Positions 2,638-29,822 of a stretch of DNA of 31,519 bases are shown in pieces. Origin of the DNA: a virus; IMG/VR virus record IMGVR_UViG_3300038425_000044, positions 1-31,519 of that record. The stretch is one strand, 5' to 3'. A model generated the notes under the pieces. That model ran no database searches, was not told the DNA's origin, and saw only the letters and a list, made by a program, of their open reading frames with translations. A program made the position numbers and the translations under genes. Within the stretch, counting starts at the first letter, position 1; each line of letters opens with the position of its first letter.

Positions 2638-2763
2638 ATGAAGACAATAACTGTTAAAGACGAAACGCACGCCCGCCTCCGTCAAGCAGGTATCTCCGGT
2701 GAGTCTATGGATACTATTATTAACCGTGCTCTTGATTGTGACGATAAGAGGAATGAAAAATGA
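2638..2763 (+). CDS. VapB-like antitoxin-type microprotein
   Basis: 41 aa beginning MKTITVKDETHARLRQAG, a beta strand followed by helix as in archaeal VapB/ribbon-helix-helix antitoxin N termini (K.I.V.DETHA.L pattern). A paralogue with the same opening lies at 7632-7760. No VapC-type toxin is next to it, so it is more likely a DNA-binding regulator or an orphan. Its stop overlaps the next start as ATGA. Confidence 0.6.
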   Translation: MKTITVKDETHARLRQAGISGESMDTIINRALDCDDKRNEK

Positions 2764-3314
2764 AACAAATTGTAATCTTCGGAGTTATCGCGCTCATTAT
2801 CTGCGCCATAGGAATAGCTGGCTGCACAACCCAAATCCCGGCACCAAATAACCAATTGAATACGACTAACGTTACTACGACTTCCGCTGTTTCTAGAGCC
2901 GTTGTTACACCCACGCCTACCATTGTAGCCACGCCAACGCCGACAGTAACGCCTATACCTACTCCTATACCTACTCCTATCCCTACACCTTTACCTACCC
3001 CGATAACGCCTACCGTGATGGGAATAAGCATGATGCCCGTTGCAGTTATCCAAGGGGAACCAATCGCTTTTACTGCCTGGGTAAACGCTAACGGCCACGC
3101 AGTTCCGAACCTACCAATCAACTGCTACGTGAATGGTGTGTTTATAGGAACGGTATCTTCCGCTAACGGTTATGCACAGTTCACCACGGGATCATTGAAC
3201 GTGCCGCTCGGTATTGTTACGGTAACGGCGTCGTTCGCGGGAAATAGTCAGTACGGTCCATCAAGTCAAGGTGGGAGCTTTATGTTGGTAGTAGATTTGA
3301 ACGCCACCAGATGA
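2760..3314 (+). CDS. Secreted lipoprotein with Thr-Pro linker and Ig-like domain
   Basis: 184 aa. Residues 1-22 are a lipoprotein signal with lipobox IAGC (Cys22). Residues about 50-85 are a Thr/Pro linker of TPTP/IPTP units encoded by short tandem DNA repeats. Residues about 86-180 are an Ig-like domain (strand pattern IAFTAWV...PINCYVNGVFIG...GIVTVTASFAGNSQYG). This is the layout of surface-exposed archaeal lipoproteins, so the product should sit on the outer face of the host membrane. A virus-encoded surface lipoprotein could act in superinfection exclusion or host-surface change; that is inference. Related Ig modules end the proteins at 19275 and 20795. Confidence 0.75.
   Translation: MKQIVIFGVIALIICAIGIAGCTTQIPAPNNQLNTTNVTTTSAVSRAVVTPTPTIVATPTPTVTPIPTPIPTPIPTPLPTPITPTVMGISMMPVAVIQGEPIAFTAWVNANGHAVPNLPINCYVNGVFIGTVSSANGYAQFTTGSLNVPLGIVTVTASFAGNSQYGPSSQGGSFMLVVDLNATR
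2941..3005 (+). repeat. Tandem repeat coding the Thr-Pro linker
   Basis: Short repeats of the CCTATACCTACT type, in codon phase and coding Ile/Thr-Pro pairs inside the lipoprotein gene. A site where repeat number could change by slippage. Confidence 0.7.
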
Positions 3315-3336
3315 TACAAAAGATAGATTTTGTATC
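3313..3336 (+). terminator. Stem-loop after lipoprotein gene
   Basis: GATACAAAA (3313-3321) pairs with TTTTGTATC (3328-3336) over a 6-nt loop, starting at the lipoprotein stop. There is no long T tract after it, so it may be a weak terminator or a processing/stability element rather than a full stop. Confidence 0.5.
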
Positions 3337-3365
3337 TTAACGGAGAACGTAATGAGGTTTGAAAA

Positions 3366-3644
3366 ATGACTTGCCATCTATGTATTGAAACTATGCAAAA
3401 CGTCCCGGGGGTCCTCTCGCCGTCTTTTCTTGAAGTGTGCCTTGAAACAGGAGAAAAATGTACACTTAAACCACCTTTAAGCGGGGTAGAAATTATTATT
3501 GAGGACATAGGTGATACCCTAATCAAACTCGATGAAGTTATTAACGTGCTGGAAGAAACCGAAGCAGATACGTGGGCCGACCTCAAGGCTATTGATTTTA
3601 TTACTGCACTGAAAGACCATTTCTGTAAGCAGAAAGAAAAATGA
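3366..3644 (+). CDS. Small acidic protein, unknown
   Basis: 92 aa, not recognised. N-terminal CHLC pair and two further Cys, then a mostly helical acidic C terminus. First gene of the run that shares the GAGGTTTGAAAAATG start cassette. No membrane segment or signal peptide. Confidence 0.65.
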   Translation: MTCHLCIETMQNVPGVLSPSFLEVCLETGEKCTLKPPLSGVEIIIEDIGDTLIKLDEVINVLEETEADTWADLKAIDFITALKDHFCKQKEK

Positions 3645-3656
3645 GGGGTTTGAAAA

Positions 3657-3803
3657 ATGAATAATCTGCGTACTTGGCGAGATGTTAAATTAGATAAGTT
3701 GAGTAAATGTAAGGACTGCCCGAAATATAGGGAGTGTTGGGCCGGTGTTGCGTTCATTTGGAACAAGGAGAACGGCGGCGGGTTCATTTTAGATGAGGTT
3801 TGA
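3657..3803 (+). CDS. Cys-rich microprotein
   Basis: 48 aa. A basic N-terminal helix leads to KCKDCPKYRECW, a C-x2-C-x5-C arrangement that could bind a metal. Starts in the second copy of the start cassette, and its stop TGA is the one inside the third copy. Function unknown. Confidence 0.6.
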   Translation: MNNLRTWRDVKLDKLSKCKDCPKYRECWAGVAFIWNKENGGGFILDEV

Positions 3804-3806
3804 AAA

Positions 3807-4010
3807 ATGCACAACATCAAAGCCGCAATAGGTGTAGAGCATCCAGTAGTTGCAGTCATCAAAGACATGCCATGCGTAATACTCGGCTACAATGATGATA
3901 AACAGGCCCTGTATGTCAGGAGCTATTTAGGCCGTGAGAGTTGGGTTCCATATTTGTGGGTAGATGATGCTTGTGAGGCTTTTGTAATAGAAGAAAAAAG
4001 AGGGGTTTGA
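3807..4010 (+). CDS. Small protein, unknown
   Basis: 67 aa with alternating hydrophobic strands (VVAVIKDMPCVILGY, ALYVRSYLG) resembling a small beta barrel. Not assigned. Bounded on both sides by the shared start cassette. Confidence 0.6.
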   Translation: MHNIKAAIGVEHPVVAVIKDMPCVILGYNDDKQALYVRSYLGRESWVPYLWVDDACEAFVIEEKRGV

Positions 4011-4013
4011 AAA

Positions 4014-4199
4014 ATGACTAAGTTAATAGACTGCCCGTTTTGGCGGAATAAACAATGTGTTGTCGATGGGGATGTAATTAAGCGACACCCGAGTTGCCGC
4101 GGAAAATTAGAAGATGTTTGGACTGGTTCGGGGTGGGTTGTACCGTGTTCAAACGGTGGGAATACTTGCTTAGCTGATTTTAGCAGAGAAGAAAAGTGA
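4014..4199 (+). CDS. Cys-rich small protein
   Basis: 61 aa. Cysteines near residues 7, 15, 28, 44 and 51, with conserved-looking Trp residues, suggest a compact metal-bound or small disulphide-type fold. Not recognised. Starts in the fourth copy of the start cassette. Confidence 0.6.
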   Translation: MTKLIDCPFWRNKQCVVDGDVIKRHPSCRGKLEDVWTGSGWVVPCSNGGNTCLADFSREEK

Positions 4200-4211
4200 G
4201 GGGTTTGAAAA

Positions 4212-4355
4212 ATGACTTCACGTAAAATTCGATGGTCGACAATGTGTCTAAAAGCCGGTATGATGCTTATAGAATCTGCTTGCCGATTATGCCAGTATCA
4301 CCGTTATGATGATAGTGGTCATGATATGTGTGATTATGTCTTAGCAGAAAAGTGA
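4212..4355 (+). CDS. Cys-rich microprotein
   Basis: 47 aa with C, C-x2-C and a later H/C group (CRLCQYHRY...HDMCDY), a likely four-ligand zinc site. Starts in the fifth cassette copy and its TGA overlaps the sixth. Function unknown. Confidence 0.6.
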   Translation: MTSRKIRWSTMCLKAGMMLIESACRLCQYHRYDDSGHDMCDYVLAEK

Positions 4356-4365
4356 GGTTTGAAAA

Positions 4366-4527
4366 ATGACTTTTATTTGTTGTGCGTACACCTTGCACCT
4401 ACTCTGGGAAGATGAAGTTGTGATTGTAGACGGAGTTCCTTACTGTAAAGAACACGCCAAAGATGTAACGCTTATTCCACGGATGGTAGAACTAGCAGAA
4501 CGCCAGCGACAAGAGGCCGAACAATGA
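4366..4527 (+). CDS. Small Cys-containing protein coupled to a membrane peptide
   Basis: 53 aa. An N-terminal CC pair, a WEDEVVIVDGVPYCKEH segment that looks like half a zinc-knuckle hairpin, and a charged helical C terminus. It overlaps the following membrane peptide by ATGA, one of several such Cys-rich/membrane pairs in this window. Confidence 0.6.
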   Translation: MTFICCAYTLHLLWEDEVVIVDGVPYCKEHAKDVTLIPRMVELAERQRQEAEQ

Positions 4528-4685
4528 AACCTATCCCTATTTCAGAAGACTGGATTGATCCTAGAACCCTACCAGACAAAAAACTAAGTGGACTTGCGCG
4601 GGGAGTAATCATCGGGTTAATAGTGGTGTTTGTTTTCTGGGCCCTTGTTTTTATTATCGCTGGGACTATGCTGGTCTTACATTAA
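4524..4685 (+). CDS. Single-helix membrane peptide
   Basis: 53 aa with a proline-rich polar N terminus and one long hydrophobic segment (about residues 27-52) reaching the C terminus. ATGA overlap with the previous gene; a strong SD for the next gene follows directly. Function unknown. Confidence 0.6.
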   Translation: MKPIPISEDWIDPRTLPDKKLSGLARGVIIGLIVVFVFWALVFIIAGTMLVLH

Positions 4686-4701
4686 AAAGGAGGTGAAATA
4701 C

Positions 4702-4902
4702 ATGGCTAATATATTTTTCACGCTAGGGGTCGCTATCATAGCTTTCCTAGTACTGCTCGTGATACTAGGATTCATGGCGCTGTTTTTCTTTGCGCTGTTC
4801 GGACCTGTAGGCGTATTGGTGATAGTAGTATTCGTATTACTGCTGCTGTACGCGGTGGTTAAGGCGTCAAGGGGCAGGAAACAGAACGAGGTAGTCGCGT
4901 AG
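4702..4902 (+). CDS. Small two-helix membrane protein
   Basis: 66 aa. The start is the ATG 6 nt after AAGGAGGTG (4687-4695); a longer frame from 4630 would run through the preceding gene and lacks an SD. Two closely spaced hydrophobic segments (about 4-33 and 36-55) and a basic tail. The gene ends inside the UUCG terminator stem. Confidence 0.65.
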   Translation: MANIFFTLGVAIIAFLVLLVILGFMALFFFALFGPVGVLVIVVFVLLLLYAVVKASRGRKQNEVVA

Positions 4903-4930
4903 TATCTTCGGATACTACTTTTCTTTTTTA
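4899..4930 (+). terminator. UUCG-tetraloop terminator
   Basis: GTAGTATC (4899-4906) and GATACTAC (4911-4918) pair perfectly around TTCG, followed by TTTTCTTTTTTA. A very stable hairpin plus T tract. The TAG stop of the membrane protein is within the left arm. Ends the leftward-to-middle + strand operon. Confidence 0.85.
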
Positions 4931-5386: not shown

Positions 5387-5392
5387 GTGGAC

Positions 5393-15714: not shown

Positions 15715-15996
15715 ATGCAAAAAGCTAGATTTAGTTCCGACGAATTGTACAGGCTCGTATATACGCGAGAGTATGACGAACCGGACTGGGATCATTTAAA
15801 TACCAAATATAAAGGACGAATTGCCTACATGCTATTGGCTCCGCACGCGGTTATGGTACACCCGTATAATGCAGGAAAATATTACATGGTACAAATAATT
15901 GAGAAAATTTTTGTATGTAGGAATGATGAAGTGCGTCTGCCAGACGGCGAAGACCCTTCTTTAGTCTGTTATGACGAGGAGCCGCATTGTGACTAA
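15715..15996 (+). CDS. Hypothetical protein
   Basis: 93 aa, no family recognised. Mixed alpha/beta with an aromatic strand (AYMLLAPHAVMVHPYNAGKYYMVQ) and two C-terminal Cys. ATG directly follows the TAG of the MazG-like gene in the same frame; the end overlaps the phosphoesterase gene. Confidence 0.55.
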   Translation: MQKARFSSDELYRLVYTREYDEPDWDHLNTKYKGRIAYMLLAPHAVMVHPYNAGKYYMVQIIEKIFVCRNDEVRLPDGEDPSLVCYDEEPHCD

Positions 15997-17761
15997 GAAA
16001 TGCTCTCGCTGCGGTAGACTTGTAGAGACAAAAGGTTTCAAGACGTGCGACACGTGCCGGGAAGAAAGTAGAGAATACCGCAATCAGCACCGGGAACATG
16101 AACAGGAACGCCAAATTGAATGGCAGCGGCTCAGCAGGAAAAAGAAACGCGAAGCCCGTTATCTAGAGGGCATTTATGATAAATATACTCATGATGAATT
16201 AAAGGCAATAAGCAAAGGCAAAGGCGTCTATGAGTTTACTGTAACACCTCCGAAGGTAAACATTGACCATACCGGGGAAGAGATACGCTTTGGGTTTTTT
16301 ACTGATTCTCACATGGGAAGTATCTATTATCACGAAGCGTTTTTAGACGATTTCATCAAAACCTGCAAGGAAAAGAAAGCCCAGTTTTGTATATTTGGCG
16401 GTGACCTCACGCACGGCATGGATTCAAGGAAATACAATTTACTCTACGAGCTCAAACACATCGGCTACGCGGCACAAAAAGAATACGCCGAGGAACAACT
16501 AGCAAAAATACCGTTCCCTACCTATGTAATCGACGGCAACCATGACAGGTGGTACGAATCAATCGGGGCTCATATTGTAAAAGATATATGCGACTCAGTC
16601 CCAAATGCTGAATATATCGGACGCGATGAAGGCGATATAGTTATCAAAGGAATAATAATACGCGTATTCCACGGTGAGGACGGAAGTTCATATGCAGTTT
16701 CATATCGAATTCAGAAGCTTATTGAGTGCGTTCCTTTAGACAGCGAGATACTAACGAAAGACGGTTGGAAAAAATATAATGAAATTAATGTTGGGGACTT
16801 GGTACTAGGCTACAACAATGAAACTGAAAGATGTGAGTGGACTAGATTAACAGCAATAAACCGATACAACGATGCAGAAGTAGTAGAGTACAAAAATGAT
16901 TTTTTTAGAGTGAGGGTAACTAGAGACCATAAATGGGCTATGACTATTGAACACAGGGCCGGGAGAAATAAGAATAGTGTAGTCCCCACACGTTATAGTC
17001 GGACGTATAAAGGCTTGGTCTCTATAGACGAAGCATCAGGTAACTGGCGGAGGCCCCGTATAATACAAGCAGCGCCAGGTCCAGATGGCGGGGGATTAGC
17101 GATAAAAGAGCATCTAGATTGGATAAACCGGGAAGATTCAATAAATAAAGTAATGGAGATGACATCCTCGGAAAGGAAAGGATTTATTCTTGGAATGGTT
17201 TACGGGGAAGGTGCACACGTCAAGAATAAAGATAGACCTAACCCAGGTGGAACAATCGTATTCGCTCAAAATCCTGGGACTTTAAATGAGGCGTTTAAAC
17301 TCGCATGTTTTTTGGAAGGGGTAGCAGTAGGAACTACCAAAAGAGTATCTAAAAAAATGAATGGGGATACTAAGATAAATTGTAGAACTACCATGCTCAG
17401 GAAACCGCACAGGATGATCTCTGCTATAAAAGAAATCGGAAAAACAGTAGAAGACGTGTGGTGTCCAACTACTGAACTAGGAACATGGGTGATGCGACAA
17501 GGTGACACCATAACAATCACAGGAAACAGTATCACAGGTGGAGAAAAGCCTAACGTACTACTAATGGGTCACGCGCACAAACAAGGGTACTTCTTTGAAC
17601 GCAATATTCACGCGGTAAGCGGTGGAGCGTTATCGACGCAATCTAAATGGATGCGAAGTAAGCGAATGGCTAATCACGCCGGATATCATTTTATAACTAT
17701 GCGGGTCGATGATGAAGGAGTAGCCGAGTTCACGCTGACTTTTAGGCCATTTTATGTTTGA
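15989..17761 (+). CDS. Zinc-ribbon metallophosphoesterase interrupted by an intein
   Basis: 590 aa precursor from GTG, 8 nt after GAGGAG; ATG 15971 is an alternative without SD. Residues about 5-30 are a zinc ribbon (CSRCGR...CDTCRE). The phosphoesterase motifs are D106-x-H108 (FTDSHMG), GGD139 (GGDLTHG), GNH185D, VFHGE and G-H-A-H (528-530), the full two-metal set of calcineurin-like enzymes acting on nucleic-acid or nucleotide phosphoesters. An intein (residues 247-513) splits the protein just before the last motif; the mature protein is about 323 aa. The zinc ribbon closely resembles that of the HNH gene at 27850. Likely a DNA repair or processing nuclease. Confidence 0.85.
   Translation: MTKKCSRCGRLVETKGFKTCDTCREESREYRNQHREHEQERQIEWQRLSRKKKREARYLEGIYDKYTHDELKAISKGKGVYEFTVTPPKVNIDHTGEEIRFGFFTDSHMGSIYYHEAFLDDFIKTCKEKKAQFCIFGGDLTHGMDSRKYNLLYELKHIGYAAQKEYAEEQLAKIPFPTYVIDGNHDRWYESIGAHIVKDICDSVPNAEYIGRDEGDIVIKGIIIRVFHGEDGSSYAVSYRIQKLIECVPLDSEILTKDGWKKYNEINVGDLVLGYNNETERCEWTRLTAINRYNDAEVVEYKNDFFRVRVTRDHKWAMTIEHRAGRNKNSVVPTRYSRTYKGLVSIDEASGNWRRPRIIQAAPGPDGGGLAIKEHLDWINREDSINKVMEMTSSERKGFILGMVYGEGAHVKNKDRPNPGGTIVFAQNPGTLNEAFKLACFLEGVAVGTTKRVSKKMNGDTKINCRTTMLRKPHRMISAIKEIGKTVEDVWCPTTELGTWVMRQGDTITITGNSITGGEKPNVLLMGHAHKQGYFFERNIHAVSGGALSTQSKWMRSKRMANHAGYHFITMRVDDEGVAEFTLTFRPFYV
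16727..17527 (+). mobile_element. Intein with LAGLIDADG-type homing domain
   Basis: 267 residues. It starts with Cys1 (CVPLDSEILTKDGW, block A), has VTRDHKWA (block B, T-x-x-H), a LAGLIDADG-like helix FILGMVYGEGAHV and a second acidic helix ACFLEGVAVG, then GTWVMRQGDTITITGN (blocks F/G) followed by Ser+1. The penultimate residue is Gly instead of the usual His, a TGN ending seen in other phage inteins. Insertion lies next to the GHAH metal motif, so the enzyme is presumably inactive until splicing. Confidence 0.85.
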
Positions 17762-17769
17762 AGGAAAAT

Positions 17770-17784
17770 GAGGATTGAAAAATG
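17770..17784 (+). repeat. Diverged seventh start cassette
   Basis: GAGGATTGAAAAATG, one base from the six-copy cassette at 3354-4368, again before a small Cys-rich gene. Suggests this gene moved from, or shares origin with, the earlier cluster. Confidence 0.65.
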
Positions 17785-17967
17785 ACCGAATCAGAAAAGA
17801 ATCCATATAAAGATACGGGAACGTGCAAGGAATGCGGGGAGAAAATACAATGGACACGTAGATTAGGCGGAGGGGACTATGGTTATTCTGCATATTTTGT
17901 AACCTGTAAGAATCATTGGGTACGGAACGACAGTCAAGTAAAGTGGGACAAAAAAGAAGAAAAATGA
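17782..17967 (+). CDS. Zinc-ribbon small protein
   Basis: 61 aa with CKECGEKIQW and a later C plus H (VTCKNHW), a zinc-ribbon-like unit. Starts in a copy of the GAGG..TTGAAAAATG cassette and is ATGA-coupled to a membrane peptide. Confidence 0.6.
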   Translation: MTESEKNPYKDTGTCKECGEKIQWTRRLGGGDYGYSAYFVTCKNHWVRNDSQVKWDKKEEK

Positions 17968-18050
17968 CTCCTGTTGACGCCATCATATTGCTAGTCGGCA
18001 TGGCCGTGTTCTATACAATCATAATGTACATCATCTTAACAACAACATAA
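17964..18050 (+). CDS. 28-residue membrane peptide
   Basis: Almost entirely hydrophobic (IILLVGMAVFYTIIMYIIL). ATGA overlap with the zinc-ribbon gene; the stop is next to palindrome site 5. Very short; supported mainly by repeated pairing in the window. Confidence 0.5.
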   Translation: MTPVDAIILLVGMAVFYTIIMYIILTTT

Positions 18051-22117: not shown

Positions 22118-23005
22118 ATGGCAACAGACATCGAAAAAGAAGTAAAAGGTCTAAGCGAAGACCAGATCAGAACTGTAGCTTTGGGCATAGATCCGGTTAA
22201 TTTCGCACGGCAGTTCGGCTTTAGTCCCGTTAGTTGGCAGTCGGAGCTACTACACAGTAAGCATCCCAGGGTTATCATGAACTGTCCGCGTGGCGCAGGT
22301 AAGAGTATTCTAACTGCCATACTTACGCTCCATCACGCGCTCTATACGCCAGACGCCTTTATTCTTCTGTTCTCACGGTCAGACCGGCAATCAATGGAGC
22401 TCTTTAGAAAGGTAACAGGATTTTATAAACAACTACGAAGCGATATACAAGTTGAATACTCAAAATCAGAATCAGCACACAGATTAGAACTTGAAAACGG
22501 TTCACGGATTCTTTCGCTACCAAGTTCACCTGAGACGGTGCTGGGGTATCATAACGTAACCCTCCTGGTAATAGACGAAGCAGCGTTAGTTAAAGACGAG
22601 TTGTATATGCGTGTTAGACCAATGCTCGACCATAAAAGAGGTCGGATGTTCTTACTTTCTACGCCGTTCGGAAAACGTGGGTTCTTCTTTGATGAGTGGA
22701 CGGACTGGGAACAACACGCAGATAAAACCTTTTGGCAGGGGATTACCGTATCAACAGAACAATGTCCGTGGATGACTCCTGCGTTTCTAGCTGAAGAAAA
22801 ACAAAAGCTAGGTGAAAGGTGGTATCGGCAGGAGTATATGTGCTCCTTTGAAGAAAACGTTGATAGTTATTTTACGTTCGACGAGATTGAAAACGCGTTT
22901 AGCAGCGACGTCAAGCCGTTATTTACCGCAGACGGTGAGCTTGATATTCCGCTACCTAGCGTACAGCATAAACGCGGCATGGAAGGCTTAGGGTGGAGTA
23001 TTTAA
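22118..23005 (+). CDS. terL: Terminase large subunit, ATPase part
   Basis: 295 aa. Walker A PRGAGKS (Lys62), Walker B LLVIDEA (Asp153, Glu154) and coupling motif LLSTPFGKRG are all present: the DNA-translocating motor that fills the capsid. It stops with TAA at 23003-23005, right at the linker where TerL proteins pass into their nuclease domain; the nuclease follows in the same frame with no gap. So either the two domains are separate subunits or the gene was split by a stop. Confidence 0.88.
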   Translation: MATDIEKEVKGLSEDQIRTVALGIDPVNFARQFGFSPVSWQSELLHSKHPRVIMNCPRGAGKSILTAILTLHHALYTPDAFILLFSRSDRQSMELFRKVTGFYKQLRSDIQVEYSKSESAHRLELENGSRILSLPSSPETVLGYHNVTLLVIDEAALVKDELYMRVRPMLDHKRGRMFLLSTPFGKRGFFFDEWTDWEQHADKTFWQGITVSTEQCPWMTPAFLAEEKQKLGERWYRQEYMCSFEENVDSYFTFDEIENAFSSDVKPLFTADGELDIPLPSVQHKRGMEGLGWSI

Positions 23006-23746
23006 GTGGAGACTGAAACACAGTTTACGTATTTTGTGGCGCTAGACTTGGGTCAGTCACGAGACTATACGGCGTGCGTTGTCTTAGAGCACACAGAGAC
23101 CTATGCGGTTCCGCCACCTAAAACAGGCCGCGATGCTTTTGAAATGGTAGGCATCGGCGATTCTACCGGAAAGCCATCTAAGCCAATTCCGTTTATTCCA
23201 ACAGCAGAAACGTACCATGTCAGGTACTGCAACCGCCTGGCGCTGAACACACCGTATCCTGAGATCGTGCGCTGGACCGCTACGCTGGTTAGAAAACTAA
23301 TGGCGAGCGCGAGAGTTGGGCTCATCATCGACGCGACAGGCGTAGGGCGCGCTATTTTAGATATGTTTCGTGAAGAACGTCTTAAGGTCGTGCCAGTAAA
23401 CGTCACCGGCGGCTTTCATGCTAACTTCGGTAATGGGGTATGGAACGTACCGAAAAAAGACTTAGTGAGTAGCGCCAAGATGCTGCTCGCGAAAGGAATA
23501 TTAAAAATTGACGATTCGACTGAATATAAAGACGTCCTTCGTACTGAGATTGAGAACTTTAGGATTAAGATTAACGAACGGACCCGCCACGAAAGCTATG
23601 AATCTTGGCGTGAAGGCGACCACGACGACCTAGTATTCGCAGTCTGTATGGCCACATGGTGGTGTCTAAAAAGAAAAGAAAAGGCAGGCAAGGCATACAC
23701 CCCAGTTATTGTTGGAGAAGGTGAGGGGACAACACTACCAGGTTAA
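23006..23746 (+). CDS. terL: Terminase large subunit, nuclease part
   Basis: 246 aa from GTG. RNase H-type headful nuclease: DLGQSRD (Asp14), IIDATGVGR (Asp109) and GDHDDLVFA (Asp205/207/208) give the acidic metal site that cuts viral DNA. GGTGGAG lies 7 nt before the GTG, inside the end of the ATPase gene, so independent translation is feasible. In frame with the ATPase ORF, separated only by TAA. Confidence 0.88.
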   Translation: METETQFTYFVALDLGQSRDYTACVVLEHTETYAVPPPKTGRDAFEMVGIGDSTGKPSKPIPFIPTAETYHVRYCNRLALNTPYPEIVRWTATLVRKLMASARVGLIIDATGVGRAILDMFREERLKVVPVNVTGGFHANFGNGVWNVPKKDLVSSAKMLLAKGILKIDDSTEYKDVLRTEIENFRIKINERTRHESYESWREGDHDDLVFAVCMATWWCLKRKEKAGKAYTPVIVGEGEGTTLPG

Positions 23747-23749
23747 GAC

Positions 23750-24547
23750 ATGAACAAAAGAATTTGTTACGCGGATGACTGCGACGTTGTATTCGTACCA
23801 ACTAACCGCAACCAAATCTATTGTTCAGCAAAATGTGGCAACAGGCAGCACTTTCGCAGCAAAGGAAAGTTTGCTTGGTATGTACGCACAAAGAACCGCC
23901 GTCGCGCACCACCTAAAAAATGTGAGGCCATAGATTGTGAGAATGTGTTTAATCCAACCAAACACAATCAAAAATATTGCTCAAAAAAATGCAGCAGTCA
24001 TCAGTATTATCAAGATAACAAAGAACAGATGACGGAACAAAATCGTCAGCGCCAACTCGAAAAGAAAGAGCAGATAGCCAAACGGAAGCGCGAATACCAC
24101 TTAAAACATTACCAGCCAAAAAAATTTGAACCTAAGGTATGTGCTGCAAAAGACTGCGAAAATGTCTTTATTCCTACCAGTTCGCGGCATAAGTATTGTT
24201 CATATGAATGTGGGCGGCCAGCGGCAAGCAGAAAATACCAGAAAGAGCATCCAGAAGAATATAGAGCATATTGGCACAACCGTCGCGCGAATATAGTAGG
24301 CAATGGTGGCTCTCACACTGCCGAAGAACTACATGATCTCTGGCACAAGCAAAACGGTTTCTGTTATTACTGCGGGGGGCTCCTTTATAAGACACTGAAT
24401 AGTGTTTATCACATCGAGCACAAGATTCCTATTTCTAAAGGCGGTTCAAACGATATTTCAAATATAGCATTAAGCTGTGCGGAATGTAATTTTCGTAAGC
24501 ATGATAAAACAGACGAAGAATTTTTAGAAGTGTTAAATAATAGGTAA
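23750..24547 (+). CDS. HNH homing-type endonuclease with three zinc repeats
   Basis: 265 aa. Three repeats of a C-x4-C...F-x-PT...YC-x3-C knuckle (about residues 6-32, 62-87 and 130-155) are followed by an HNH domain: CYYCG, HIEHKIPISKGGSNDISNIALSC, CNFRKHDKT. The zinc repeats probably recognise DNA. A free-standing homing nuclease between terL and portal is a common site for such genes. Its HNH domain is close to that of the gene at 27850. Confidence 0.85.
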   Translation: MNKRICYADDCDVVFVPTNRNQIYCSAKCGNRQHFRSKGKFAWYVRTKNRRRAPPKKCEAIDCENVFNPTKHNQKYCSKKCSSHQYYQDNKEQMTEQNRQRQLEKKEQIAKRKREYHLKHYQPKKFEPKVCAAKDCENVFIPTSSRHKYCSYECGRPAASRKYQKEHPEEYRAYWHNRRANIVGNGGSHTAEELHDLWHKQNGFCYYCGGLLYKTLNSVYHIEHKIPISKGGSNDISNIALSCAECNFRKHDKTDEEFLEVLNNR

Positions 24548-27811: not shown

Positions 27812-27853
27812 ATGGAAAACCAAGCTGTTGAATCCTATGAGGATCAGCAATGA
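27812..27853 (+). other. 13-codon micro-ORF before HNH gene
   Basis: MENQAVESYEDQQ, with an AGAGGAA SD and an ATGA overlap to the HNH start. It may be a leader peptide or the stub of a gene interrupted when the HNH gene moved in. Confidence 0.3.
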
Positions 27854-28455
27854 AGTGTTCTAAATGCGGTCGAGAAGCTGAAGACGCGAAGTTTAAACAG
27901 TGTAGTGCATGCCGCGAGAGTTATCGCAATTATCGTAAGCAACCCAAATGGATAGAGTACAACAGAAATTACCAACGCGAATGGATACGCACGCATAGAA
28001 AAGTACCTCCAGAAGGATGCTGTATCAGATGTGGCAAGCCGTTAGAATCTAATCTATTCGCAAAATGTGAGCAATGCCTCCAAAGTTCACGAGATTGGTT
28101 CTCTTTAAATCCCGACAAGGCTCTGAAATATGCGCGTAAGTCACGTGAAGCGAATCATGATAGACATCTGAACTATATACATAACTACCGGGCCCGGAAA
28201 AAAGGTAATGGCGGCACATTCACCTTTAAAGAGCTAAACGAGTTATTTGAACAACAAGAAGGATTCTGTTATTATTGCGGTGAATTACTTTATGCATCAT
28301 TTGACAGAGAGATTCACATAGAGCATAAGATTCCAATATCTCGCGGAGGTTCTAATGATATCACAAATATTGTACTAAGTTGCGCAAAATGCAATCTTAG
28401 TAAAGGCGCAAAGACCGATGTGGAATTTTTAAAATTGGTAACAAAGCAAAAATGA
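27850..28455 (+). CDS. HNH homing-type endonuclease with zinc ribbons
   Basis: 201 aa. Two ribbons (CSKCGREAEDAKFKQCSACR near residue 3; CIRCGKPL...CEQCLQ near 60) followed by an HNH domain with CYYCGELL, HIEHKIPISRGGSND and CAKCNLSK. The HNH part is a close paralogue of that at 23750; the N-terminal ribbon resembles that of the intein-bearing phosphoesterase. ATGA junctions on both sides. Homing or head-block-spreading nuclease. Confidence 0.85.
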   Translation: MKCSKCGREAEDAKFKQCSACRESYRNYRKQPKWIEYNRNYQREWIRTHRKVPPEGCCIRCGKPLESNLFAKCEQCLQSSRDWFSLNPDKALKYARKSREANHDRHLNYIHNYRARKKGNGGTFTFKELNELFEQQEGFCYYCGELLYASFDREIHIEHKIPISRGGSNDITNIVLSCAKCNLSKGAKTDVEFLKLVTKQK

Positions 28456-29822
28456 AAGAAGAAATCGCTGTTGAAAAGGAATCCAAACCTAAGCAATATT
28501 CCCAGGAATACATGGACGCACTTTTAGAAGGCGTCAGGCAGTATGTACCTCCGCACGTAATGGAGAACTTACACAGGCAAGCGTTACCTCGAGCCGGCGG
28601 ACGAGCAAGTGCAAAGGCACGCGCTGCTCAAACTGCTGCTCAAGCACAGACTACAGAAGCACGACAGGCACAAAATACACAGGCCGAAGTAAATGCAGAG
28701 GTAGAGAAACAACCGATACCGGCAGACATAACGCCGATACCGTTACCTACGAATGAGAAACCATTAACGCCCCCTGCACCACCGCAACTACAACCGGAAA
28801 CGTGTGCAGAAGGGGACGAAGCATGTGAAGCCCAAGCATCTGGGTCAGGTCCAGAGCAATCTACACCCGTACAACAAGGTAAAAGTAAAATGGATAAAGA
28901 AGAAATGGAAAAGACGGCTCACGGCAAGCAGGACGCCCCAATCGCTTCAACTGGTAGTTGGGATGCCGGTGCAGCACAGAAAAGACTTTTAGCATGGGCC
29001 GGGGGTCCGGATAAGGACAATGTAAACTGGCAGAAGTTCGGCAAGGGATTCTTGTATCACGACCCAAACAATGCTGATAACATTAAAGGTTATAAATTCC
29101 CGGTAGCTGACATAATCAATGGTAAGTTCCAGATAAGTCGCGCAGCACTCGGCGCCGCAGCAGGAAGAATTAATCAATCAAGCGGAATACCCCCTGACGA
29201 GTTAAACAGCATGAAAGCCACTCTGCGTTCATACTACAAAGACATAGGTGAAGACGCGCCGGATAATATCTCAAAAGCAAGCGATGGGGACTTACATCCT
29301 GATTGTCAGAAGGTAGCGGACAACTGCATGAAACTGAAATCCGGCAAAGGCATATCTAAAGCAGATGTTCCGACCTACATAGGACAAAGACCTATACTTA
29401 CCTTCGTCGCAGCATCGCCAGGCATCATGGAGTCTATCAGAAAAACCGCTTTGGCAGGGGCCACAGGCAAGACATTCAACGACGAATACCTGACTCCATT
29501 AGGGCTTACGAGAAACGACGTTGCTATTACCTATCTTGTCCCGAATCTGCTAAAAGACGAAGGCGGCAAAGTCAGAGAACCAACTGCCGAAGAAATAGAG
29601 AAGTGGCAACCCTGGTTCACAGATGAGATCGAAAAGATTGAAAGCGGTAATAAGCTTCCAATAATCGCACTCGGCCACACGGTGAAAAAAGCGTTAGATA
29701 GAGAAGTTGAATTTACACTGCCTCATCCAAACTCACTATATACCCCGCGAACCAAGGATGAGCTGCAAAGGAAGAGATATCAGGTATCAAAGGCTCTCGA
29801 AGCTAGATACCGAAAAAACTGA
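28452..29822 (+). CDS. Head-associated domain fused to uracil-DNA glycosylase
   Basis: 456 aa. Residues about 45-150 are disordered (Ala/Gln/Pro-rich). Residues about 160-275 match a module common in phage head proteins: TGSWDAGAAQKRLLAWAGG, KFGKGFLYHDPNN, YKFPVADIINGK, ATLRSYYKDIGED. Residues about 305-456 resemble the uracil-DNA glycosylase superfamily: ILTFVAASPG (first loop, without the usual acidic residue), GLTRNDVAITYLVPNLL, IIALGHTVKKAL and LPHPNSLY. Whether it cuts uracil is uncertain, as the first loop is altered. The setting between portal and protease suggests packaging into the head. Confidence 0.7.
   Translation: MKEEIAVEKESKPKQYSQEYMDALLEGVRQYVPPHVMENLHRQALPRAGGRASAKARAAQTAAQAQTTEARQAQNTQAEVNAEVEKQPIPADITPIPLPTNEKPLTPPAPPQLQPETCAEGDEACEAQASGSGPEQSTPVQQGKSKMDKEEMEKTAHGKQDAPIASTGSWDAGAAQKRLLAWAGGPDKDNVNWQKFGKGFLYHDPNNADNIKGYKFPVADIINGKFQISRAALGAAAGRINQSSGIPPDELNSMKATLRSYYKDIGEDAPDNISKASDGDLHPDCQKVADNCMKLKSGKGISKADVPTYIGQRPILTFVAASPGIMESIRKTALAGATGKTFNDEYLTPLGLTRNDVAITYLVPNLLKDEGGKVREPTAEEIEKWQPWFTDEIEKIESGNKLPIIALGHTVKKALDREVEFTLPHPNSLYTPRTKDELQRKRYQVSKALEARYRKN

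Follow-up and report, generated by a model that had tools for sequence, protein, structure and literature searches.

How phages and archaeal viruses gain small accessory genes without breaking their operons is a long-standing question, and it is raised by a run of tiny genes in a virus record of 31.5 kb (31,519 nt; referred to as the window, within which positions are counted). The initial annotation had claimed that a repeated stop-and-start cassette heads these genes and that the coding parts in between are unrelated. Six exact copies of GAGG(GG)TTTGAAAAATG were located at 3354-4368, heading six consecutive tiny genes with starts from 3366 to 4366, and every exact copy ends on the ATG of its small ORF (+ strand, as are all cassettes, small genes and flanking elements of the window described below). 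Three copies read GAGGTTTGAAAAATG (cassette 1, 3354-3368; cassette 3, 3795-3809; cassette 6, 4354-4368) and three read GAGGGGTTTGAAAAATG (cassette 2, 3643-3659; cassette 4, 4000-4016; cassette 5, 4198-4214). The seventh copy claimed at 17770 is present (cassette 7, 17770-17784) but carries one mismatch (GAGGATTGAAAAATG) and is not exact. When ≤1 mismatch was allowed, the 11-mer TTTGAAAAATG was found at 9 places in the window, compared with 1.4 on average and at most 5 in 100 dinucleotide shuffles; the gapped cassette pattern matched 6 times forward, 0 times in reverse and 0 times with the reversed-pattern control. The conserved string exceeds its first description, being roughly [GA]AGAAAAA-(TGA)GAGG(GG)TTTGAAAAATGACT. 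A weaker, degenerate copy, GAGGAATGAAAAATG (AGGAATGAAAAATG at 2749-2762), sits ahead of the left flanking gene at 2760, and gene content upstream changes there too. The TGAAAA-ATG context is used by only 8 of the 69 genes called in the window.

The ORFs headed by the exact cassettes encode, in order, proteins of 92 aa (3366-3644), 48 aa (3657-3803, Cys-containing), 67 aa (3807-4010), 61 aa (4014-4199, Cys-rich), 47 aa (4212-4355, Cys-containing) and 53 aa (4366-4527). No homologue was found for the first five. The cassette proteins of the window gave no convincing match to Pfam or PHROG; a search of viral contigs with array protein 1 returned no relatives, and a search with array protein 6 returned a single contig, referred to as G002. 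All-against-all blastp detected no similarity among the cassette proteins, as had been claimed, and a paralogous array arising by divergence was rejected, the gene bodies being without similarity. The array is preceded by a leader inverted repeat (GATACAAAA-GATAGA-TTTTGTATC, 3313-3336) and bounded by a TTCG-loop hairpin with a T-rich tail (4899-4929), which is likely the end of the array transcript.

Relatives were retrieved by the portal protein, yielding 15 contigs, of which several are 97% identical and others 75-79%. Longer cassette patterns in viral contigs also pointed to relatives; broad patterns gave mostly single chance matches. A Megablast search of phage records gave no match, and searches with TerL, papain and ParB gave mixed matches, none of them close. 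The relatives presumably come from peatland, judging from the IMG sample numbers. Among them, G002 (57,956 bp, portal identity 97%) contains the corresponding array locus. The left flanking gene (2760-3314), a conserved gene for a lipoprotein-like product with an Ig-like domain, is 94% identical in G002, and comparison of the two genomes gave 94-95% identity for this gene (2757-3314) and the right block (4346-4929). The 1 kb between these flanks shares only the leader and the cassettes with G002, which has about eight other small genes at this place, almost all of them preceded by the same cassette; leaders related to the 3313-3336 repeat stand before both of its sub-arrays. None of the first five array genes occurs in G002. 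The last cassette gene (96% in G002) is the right border of the swapped block, and cassettes 1 and 6 are gene-content breakpoints between the two genomes, cassette 6 being the right-hand one. The prediction that gene content should vary between constant cassettes was thus met.

The site at 17770 was found in three states. In contig L127 the cassette and the small genes, including a 28-aa gene, are lacking; in four contigs from different samples one cassette is followed by the 28-aa gene with the joint TTTGAAAAATGAGGTTTGAAAAATGACTCC; in the window an extra 61-aa gene (17782-17967) lies between two copies of GAAAAATGAC, of which the four contigs retain one. The 61-aa gene, which is missing in G002, G003, L130 and L131, has been gained or lost as a unit, cassette 7 marking its presence or absence against four relatives, and the membrane-type 28-aa gene (17964-18050) follows it in the window and stands directly behind the cassette in relatives.

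A second lineage with its own cassette variant comprises G010, G017, G018 and G019. In G010, a 75% relative, about 18 joints have the form GAAAAAGAGGCTGAAAAATGACT, and the same joint variant is also present in the other three; a third lineage is represented by L290, which translated similarity shows to be a distant relative and in which six joints read GAGGGTGAAAAATGACT. Between G010 and G018 six genes were lost between two cassettes, leaving the 5′ half of one cassette fused to the gene of the other, and in the resulting hybrid cassette the difference GAGGCTG versus GAGGGCTG marks the putative crossover. The same comparison showed the insertion of two genes and losses of single genes, all with their ends in cassettes. 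Comparison of G010 with G018 and G017 met the prediction of variable gene content independently, with breaks enriched at cassette joints. As separate observations, an in-frame repeat of 15 nt occurs about 18 times in a 229-aa ORF of G010 (L156 18041-18445), and many repeat copies are also present in the matching region of G018.

Duplications were observed as well. G002 contains a 165-nt cassette-gene-cassette unit twice, 100% identical within unrelated flanks and with both ends inside cassettes, and an older duplication is present in G010. These two cases, one recent and one old, lend some substance to the idea that the whole array goes back to tandem copies of a single gene with a cassette at its head, the coding parts having diverged beyond recognition. 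We nevertheless consider this origin highly improbable, as the gene bodies are dissimilar while the joints of 15-17 nt differ hardly at all, and orthologues are gained and lost as units between 94%-identical genomes, which is impossible by divergence.

Every relative is a metagenomic contig and the joints were not checked against reads. Since repeats can misjoin contigs in general, the changes might be suspected to be artefacts of metagenome assembly at the repeated cassette. The repeats (15-28 nt) are, however, below the usual final word lengths of assembly, and some joints recur across samples: seven of the G010 joints are found again in G017, and the state at 17770 is shared by four contigs from different IMG samples. 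An artefact is for these reasons barely conceivable.

Gain, loss, exchange and duplication of genes with breakpoints at cassettes are thus documented in these viruses. To what extent the breaks favour cassettes was evaluated in two genome pairs. For G010/G018, 10 of 32 breakpoints fell ≤10 nt from a cassette where 0.7 were expected (P=1e-9), and for window/G002 5 of 38 where 0.4 were expected (P=5e-5). As breaks favour gene boundaries anyway, joints were compared with joints: gene content breaks at 14/15 cassette joints and at 9/46 other gene joints (Fisher P=4e-7, both pairs). Counted from the same list of joints, the variable stretch of G010 (3.3-14.6 kb) showed breaks at 10/10 cassette starts versus 3/13 other starts (hypergeometric P about 2.5e-4). 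Only these two close genome pairs cover arrays, the events are few and partly dependent on one another within a pair; the P values should accordingly be taken as guides. The same test was applied to the SAS joints of cluster K phages, using pairs of similar identity (92-95%), and yielded 1/14, 2/15 and 2/14 breaks without enrichment; the joint test is therefore not biased to repeats at starts.

These counts bear on the most serious objection, namely that the cassette is merely the preferred ribosome-binding context of accessory genes with fast turnover, exchanged independently of homology, with selection keeping those events that fall between intact genes. Breaks at some non-cassette starts (the 9/46) mean that gene-boundary exchange is possible without a cassette; some junctions share the ATG or ATGA alone (for example window 10677 versus G002), and homologues of array genes exist without the cassette (G010 13210 versus window 14266). 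Against this, within one and the same variable stretch every cassette start breaks and few of the others do, a crossover within the repeat is indicated by the chimeric cassettes and by the exact duplication from cassette to cassette, and neither the constant spacer letters nor the 3′ extension ATGACT is necessary for a ribosome-binding site. We regard this explanation as unlikely, though not to be dismissed. Nor was the refuting outcome, a fixed gene order with the cassette as common Shine-Dalgarno context, met within these viruses, the context of host genes being outside the data. Recombination through the cassette, as proposed by the initial annotation, is thus supported by the gene-content breaks at cassettes, whereas the crossover itself is only inferred from junction sequences. 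Sequence identity across a cassette at a breakpoint might also stem in part from selection for translation on each of the two alleles, instead of from crossover.

The structure of the cassette suggests how the joint might work. It consists of TGA stops that overlap in different frames, three at most (TGAGG..., ...TGAAAA... and ...ATGA), combined with a GAGG Shine-Dalgarno sequence and an ATG at fixed spacing, the consensus being aaaaaaa.GaGGTTTGAAAAATGAct in group A and aaaaagaGGctGAAAAATGAc in group B. An upstream ORF of 25 aa or more was present at 51 joints, and at 42 of these it terminates on a TGA of the cassette, at position +1 (20), -6 (13), -13 (5) or -15 (4), of which +1, -6 and -13 represent three different frames. 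Within the window array the upstream stop is the TGA at -15 in cassettes 2 and 5, at -6 in cassettes 3 and 4 and at -13 in cassette 6. All three frames are closed at 13/61 cassette joints and two at 39/61, compared with 11/233 and 87/233 at other gene starts, so that closure of two or three frames is much commoner at cassette joints (P=5e-10). Because stops and tails are encoded by the cassette, many array proteins share short Lys/Glu tails. Most upstream genes stop between -15 and +1 nt from the next start, which leaves no space for promoters between array genes. Folding of two internal joints gave 0 and -4.5 kcal/mol, no better than shuffles; no stable stem-loop was thus found at these two joints, the hairpin of the array being confined to the leader.

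With TGAs in two or three frames, an upstream gene meets a stop within about 17 nt in nearly every frame, and the ribosome could then begin the next gene immediately. Coupled translation is inferred here from the stop/start geometry, which is also all that was observed of the uniform coupled rate suggested in the initial annotation. Because nearly the same 14-28 bp are present at every joint of a genome, crossovers between joints are possible, and such crossovers, either within one genome or between coinfecting relatives, may remove, add, double or exchange whole small genes while the operon still works. The spacers are similar within a lineage and different between lineages (TTTGAAAA, CTGAAAA, GTGAAAA), which fits the expectation for copies that exchange with one another. 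RecT was searched for and not found; other recombinase families were outside the systematic search. Taken together, we consider it probable that the cassette is a frame-tolerant translational adaptor doubling as a short joint for homologous recombination, with both the crossover and the coupled translation remaining inferences.

A conservation exceeding the needs of a Shine-Dalgarno sequence, together with the lineage-specific spacers and the HNH endonuclease ORFs common in these viruses, would also be compatible with cassettes serving as recognition sites for a dedicated protein of virus or host, whether a regulator of the array that binds RNA or DNA, or a recombinase, site-specific or homing, that transfers gene units. 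Among the proteins scanned, however, neither a recombinase nor a transposase turned up beside the arrays in the window or in G002, the cassette sequence has no dyad symmetry, and the length of the junctions varies (10-28 bp), which fits homology better than a fixed cut. Recognition by such a protein is therefore distinctly improbable, and the adaptor doubling as a homologous joint remains our preferred explanation.

Several known systems resemble the cassette in part. An integron array is rejected, as the joints that were folded lack attC-like structure and no integrase was found among the proteins scanned, some ORFs being outside the scan. The SAS of cluster K mycobacteriophages is a repeated element of about 13 bp which includes a Shine-Dalgarno sequence, lies a few nt upstream of the ATG in many small non-structural genes and can contain the upstream stop (PMC3203893). 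Unlike cassette joints, SAS joints are not gene-content breakpoints and precede conserved genes, and the sequence is unrelated. Membership in the SAS is unmet on both counts: its consensus is GGGATAGGAGCCC before the ATG, compared with (TGA)GAGG..TGAAAAATGACT here, and an association with conserved gene families is lacking, as 14/15 cassette joints break whereas SAS joints are mostly conserved.

Lambdoid boundaries generally each have their own sequence, common to different phages. They differ in this respect from the array, where one sequence stands at all joints, so that any joint can pair with any other. These boundary sequences are described as short gene-boundary repeats proposed to be homologous recombination sites for module exchange (cited in PMC3029335). 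Coincidence of exchange junctions with short shared gene-boundary sequences, as expected for boundaries of the lambdoid type, is met here, without a recombination experiment. In T4-type phages, PeSL combines an early promoter with a stem-loop as a mobile regulatory cassette (Arbiol et al. 2010; Comeau et al. 2014; via PMC3950731, PMC4503421). Both PeSL and the present cassette are repeated intergenic elements among tiny genes in a hypervariable region, and PeSL has been proposed to shuffle modules; in contrast to the transcriptional PeSL, the cassette is a translational joint of 15-17 nt without room for a promoter. A PeSL-type cassette was accordingly rejected, since an early promoter and, at the two joints folded, a stable stem-loop are lacking and only the repeat at the borders of shuffled small genes is shared. 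In the archaeal tailed virus HGTV-1, a conserved motif of TATA box and inverted repeat precedes many small genes and has been suggested to aid shuffling (Sencilo et al. 2013, as described in PMC3950731). Shuffling by this promoter-type motif was proposed only by analogy, whereas the joint here is of the stop/RBS/start type and swaps are documented between close relatives. The cassette resembles lambdoid boundaries and T4 PeSL in working but is neither; novelty relative to both, on our best reading, lies in the translation-type joint and in the use of one sequence for all joints.

The window further encodes a portal protein of the Mu type, a MuF-like protein, a large terminase and two ParB-like genes. 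The terminase is apparently split into an ATPase ORF (22118-23005) and an ORF directly after its stop (23006-23746), a layout also present in G002 (L128 1223-2110 / 2111-2881). Two HNH-like ORFs (23750-24547 and 27850-28455) adjoin terminase and structural genes, the first of which is missing in several relatives (alignment gap 23724-24533). A metallophosphatase ORF (15971-17761) has an intein-like insert at about 16680-17532, an alignment gap in most relatives, and the papain-like protein of G002 (L153 467-2458) contains a recognised intein with an HNH motif. A 456-aa ORF (28452-29822) carries a C-terminal domain of the uracil-DNA glycosylase superfamily. The near-palindrome ATTAATC(C/T)(A/G)GATTAAT is dispersed at 5390, 7535, 9977, 9994, 18050, 18576 and 29837 and is possibly an operator or ParB binding site.

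Evidence on the host comes from an Orc1/Cdc6 protein of G002 and G003 (in G002 at L153 10476-11618), whose best match is to Methanothermobacter plasmids (34%) and otherwise to haloarchaeal plasmids; the Cdc6 lid family gave no match in the 31.5 kb of the window. A portal search of genome contigs returned two distant bacterial contigs and no host contig. The Orc1/Cdc6 of the relatives suggests that the host is an archaeon, perhaps a methanogen.

For these viruses, we tentatively propose, while not yet calling it probable, an integrase-free and self-maintaining gene-cassette system, in which a joint of three-frame stop, RBS and start is kept uniform within a lineage by its own recombination, so that any short ORF could be inserted into a virus operon irrespective of frame and be expressed immediately, accessory repertoires turning over between near-identical viruses. 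The joint, short and purely translational, recurs at many junctions; its role can be put in numbers (14/15 versus 9/46), and turnover of the genes it carries is seen between viruses that are 94% identical, which makes the boundary hypothesis directly testable. The cassette also provides a sequence handle by which new accessory genes could be found in archaeal viruses; that some of these counter host defences is a guess. In the reading proposed here, the joints would act as ready-made plug-in sites for new genes.
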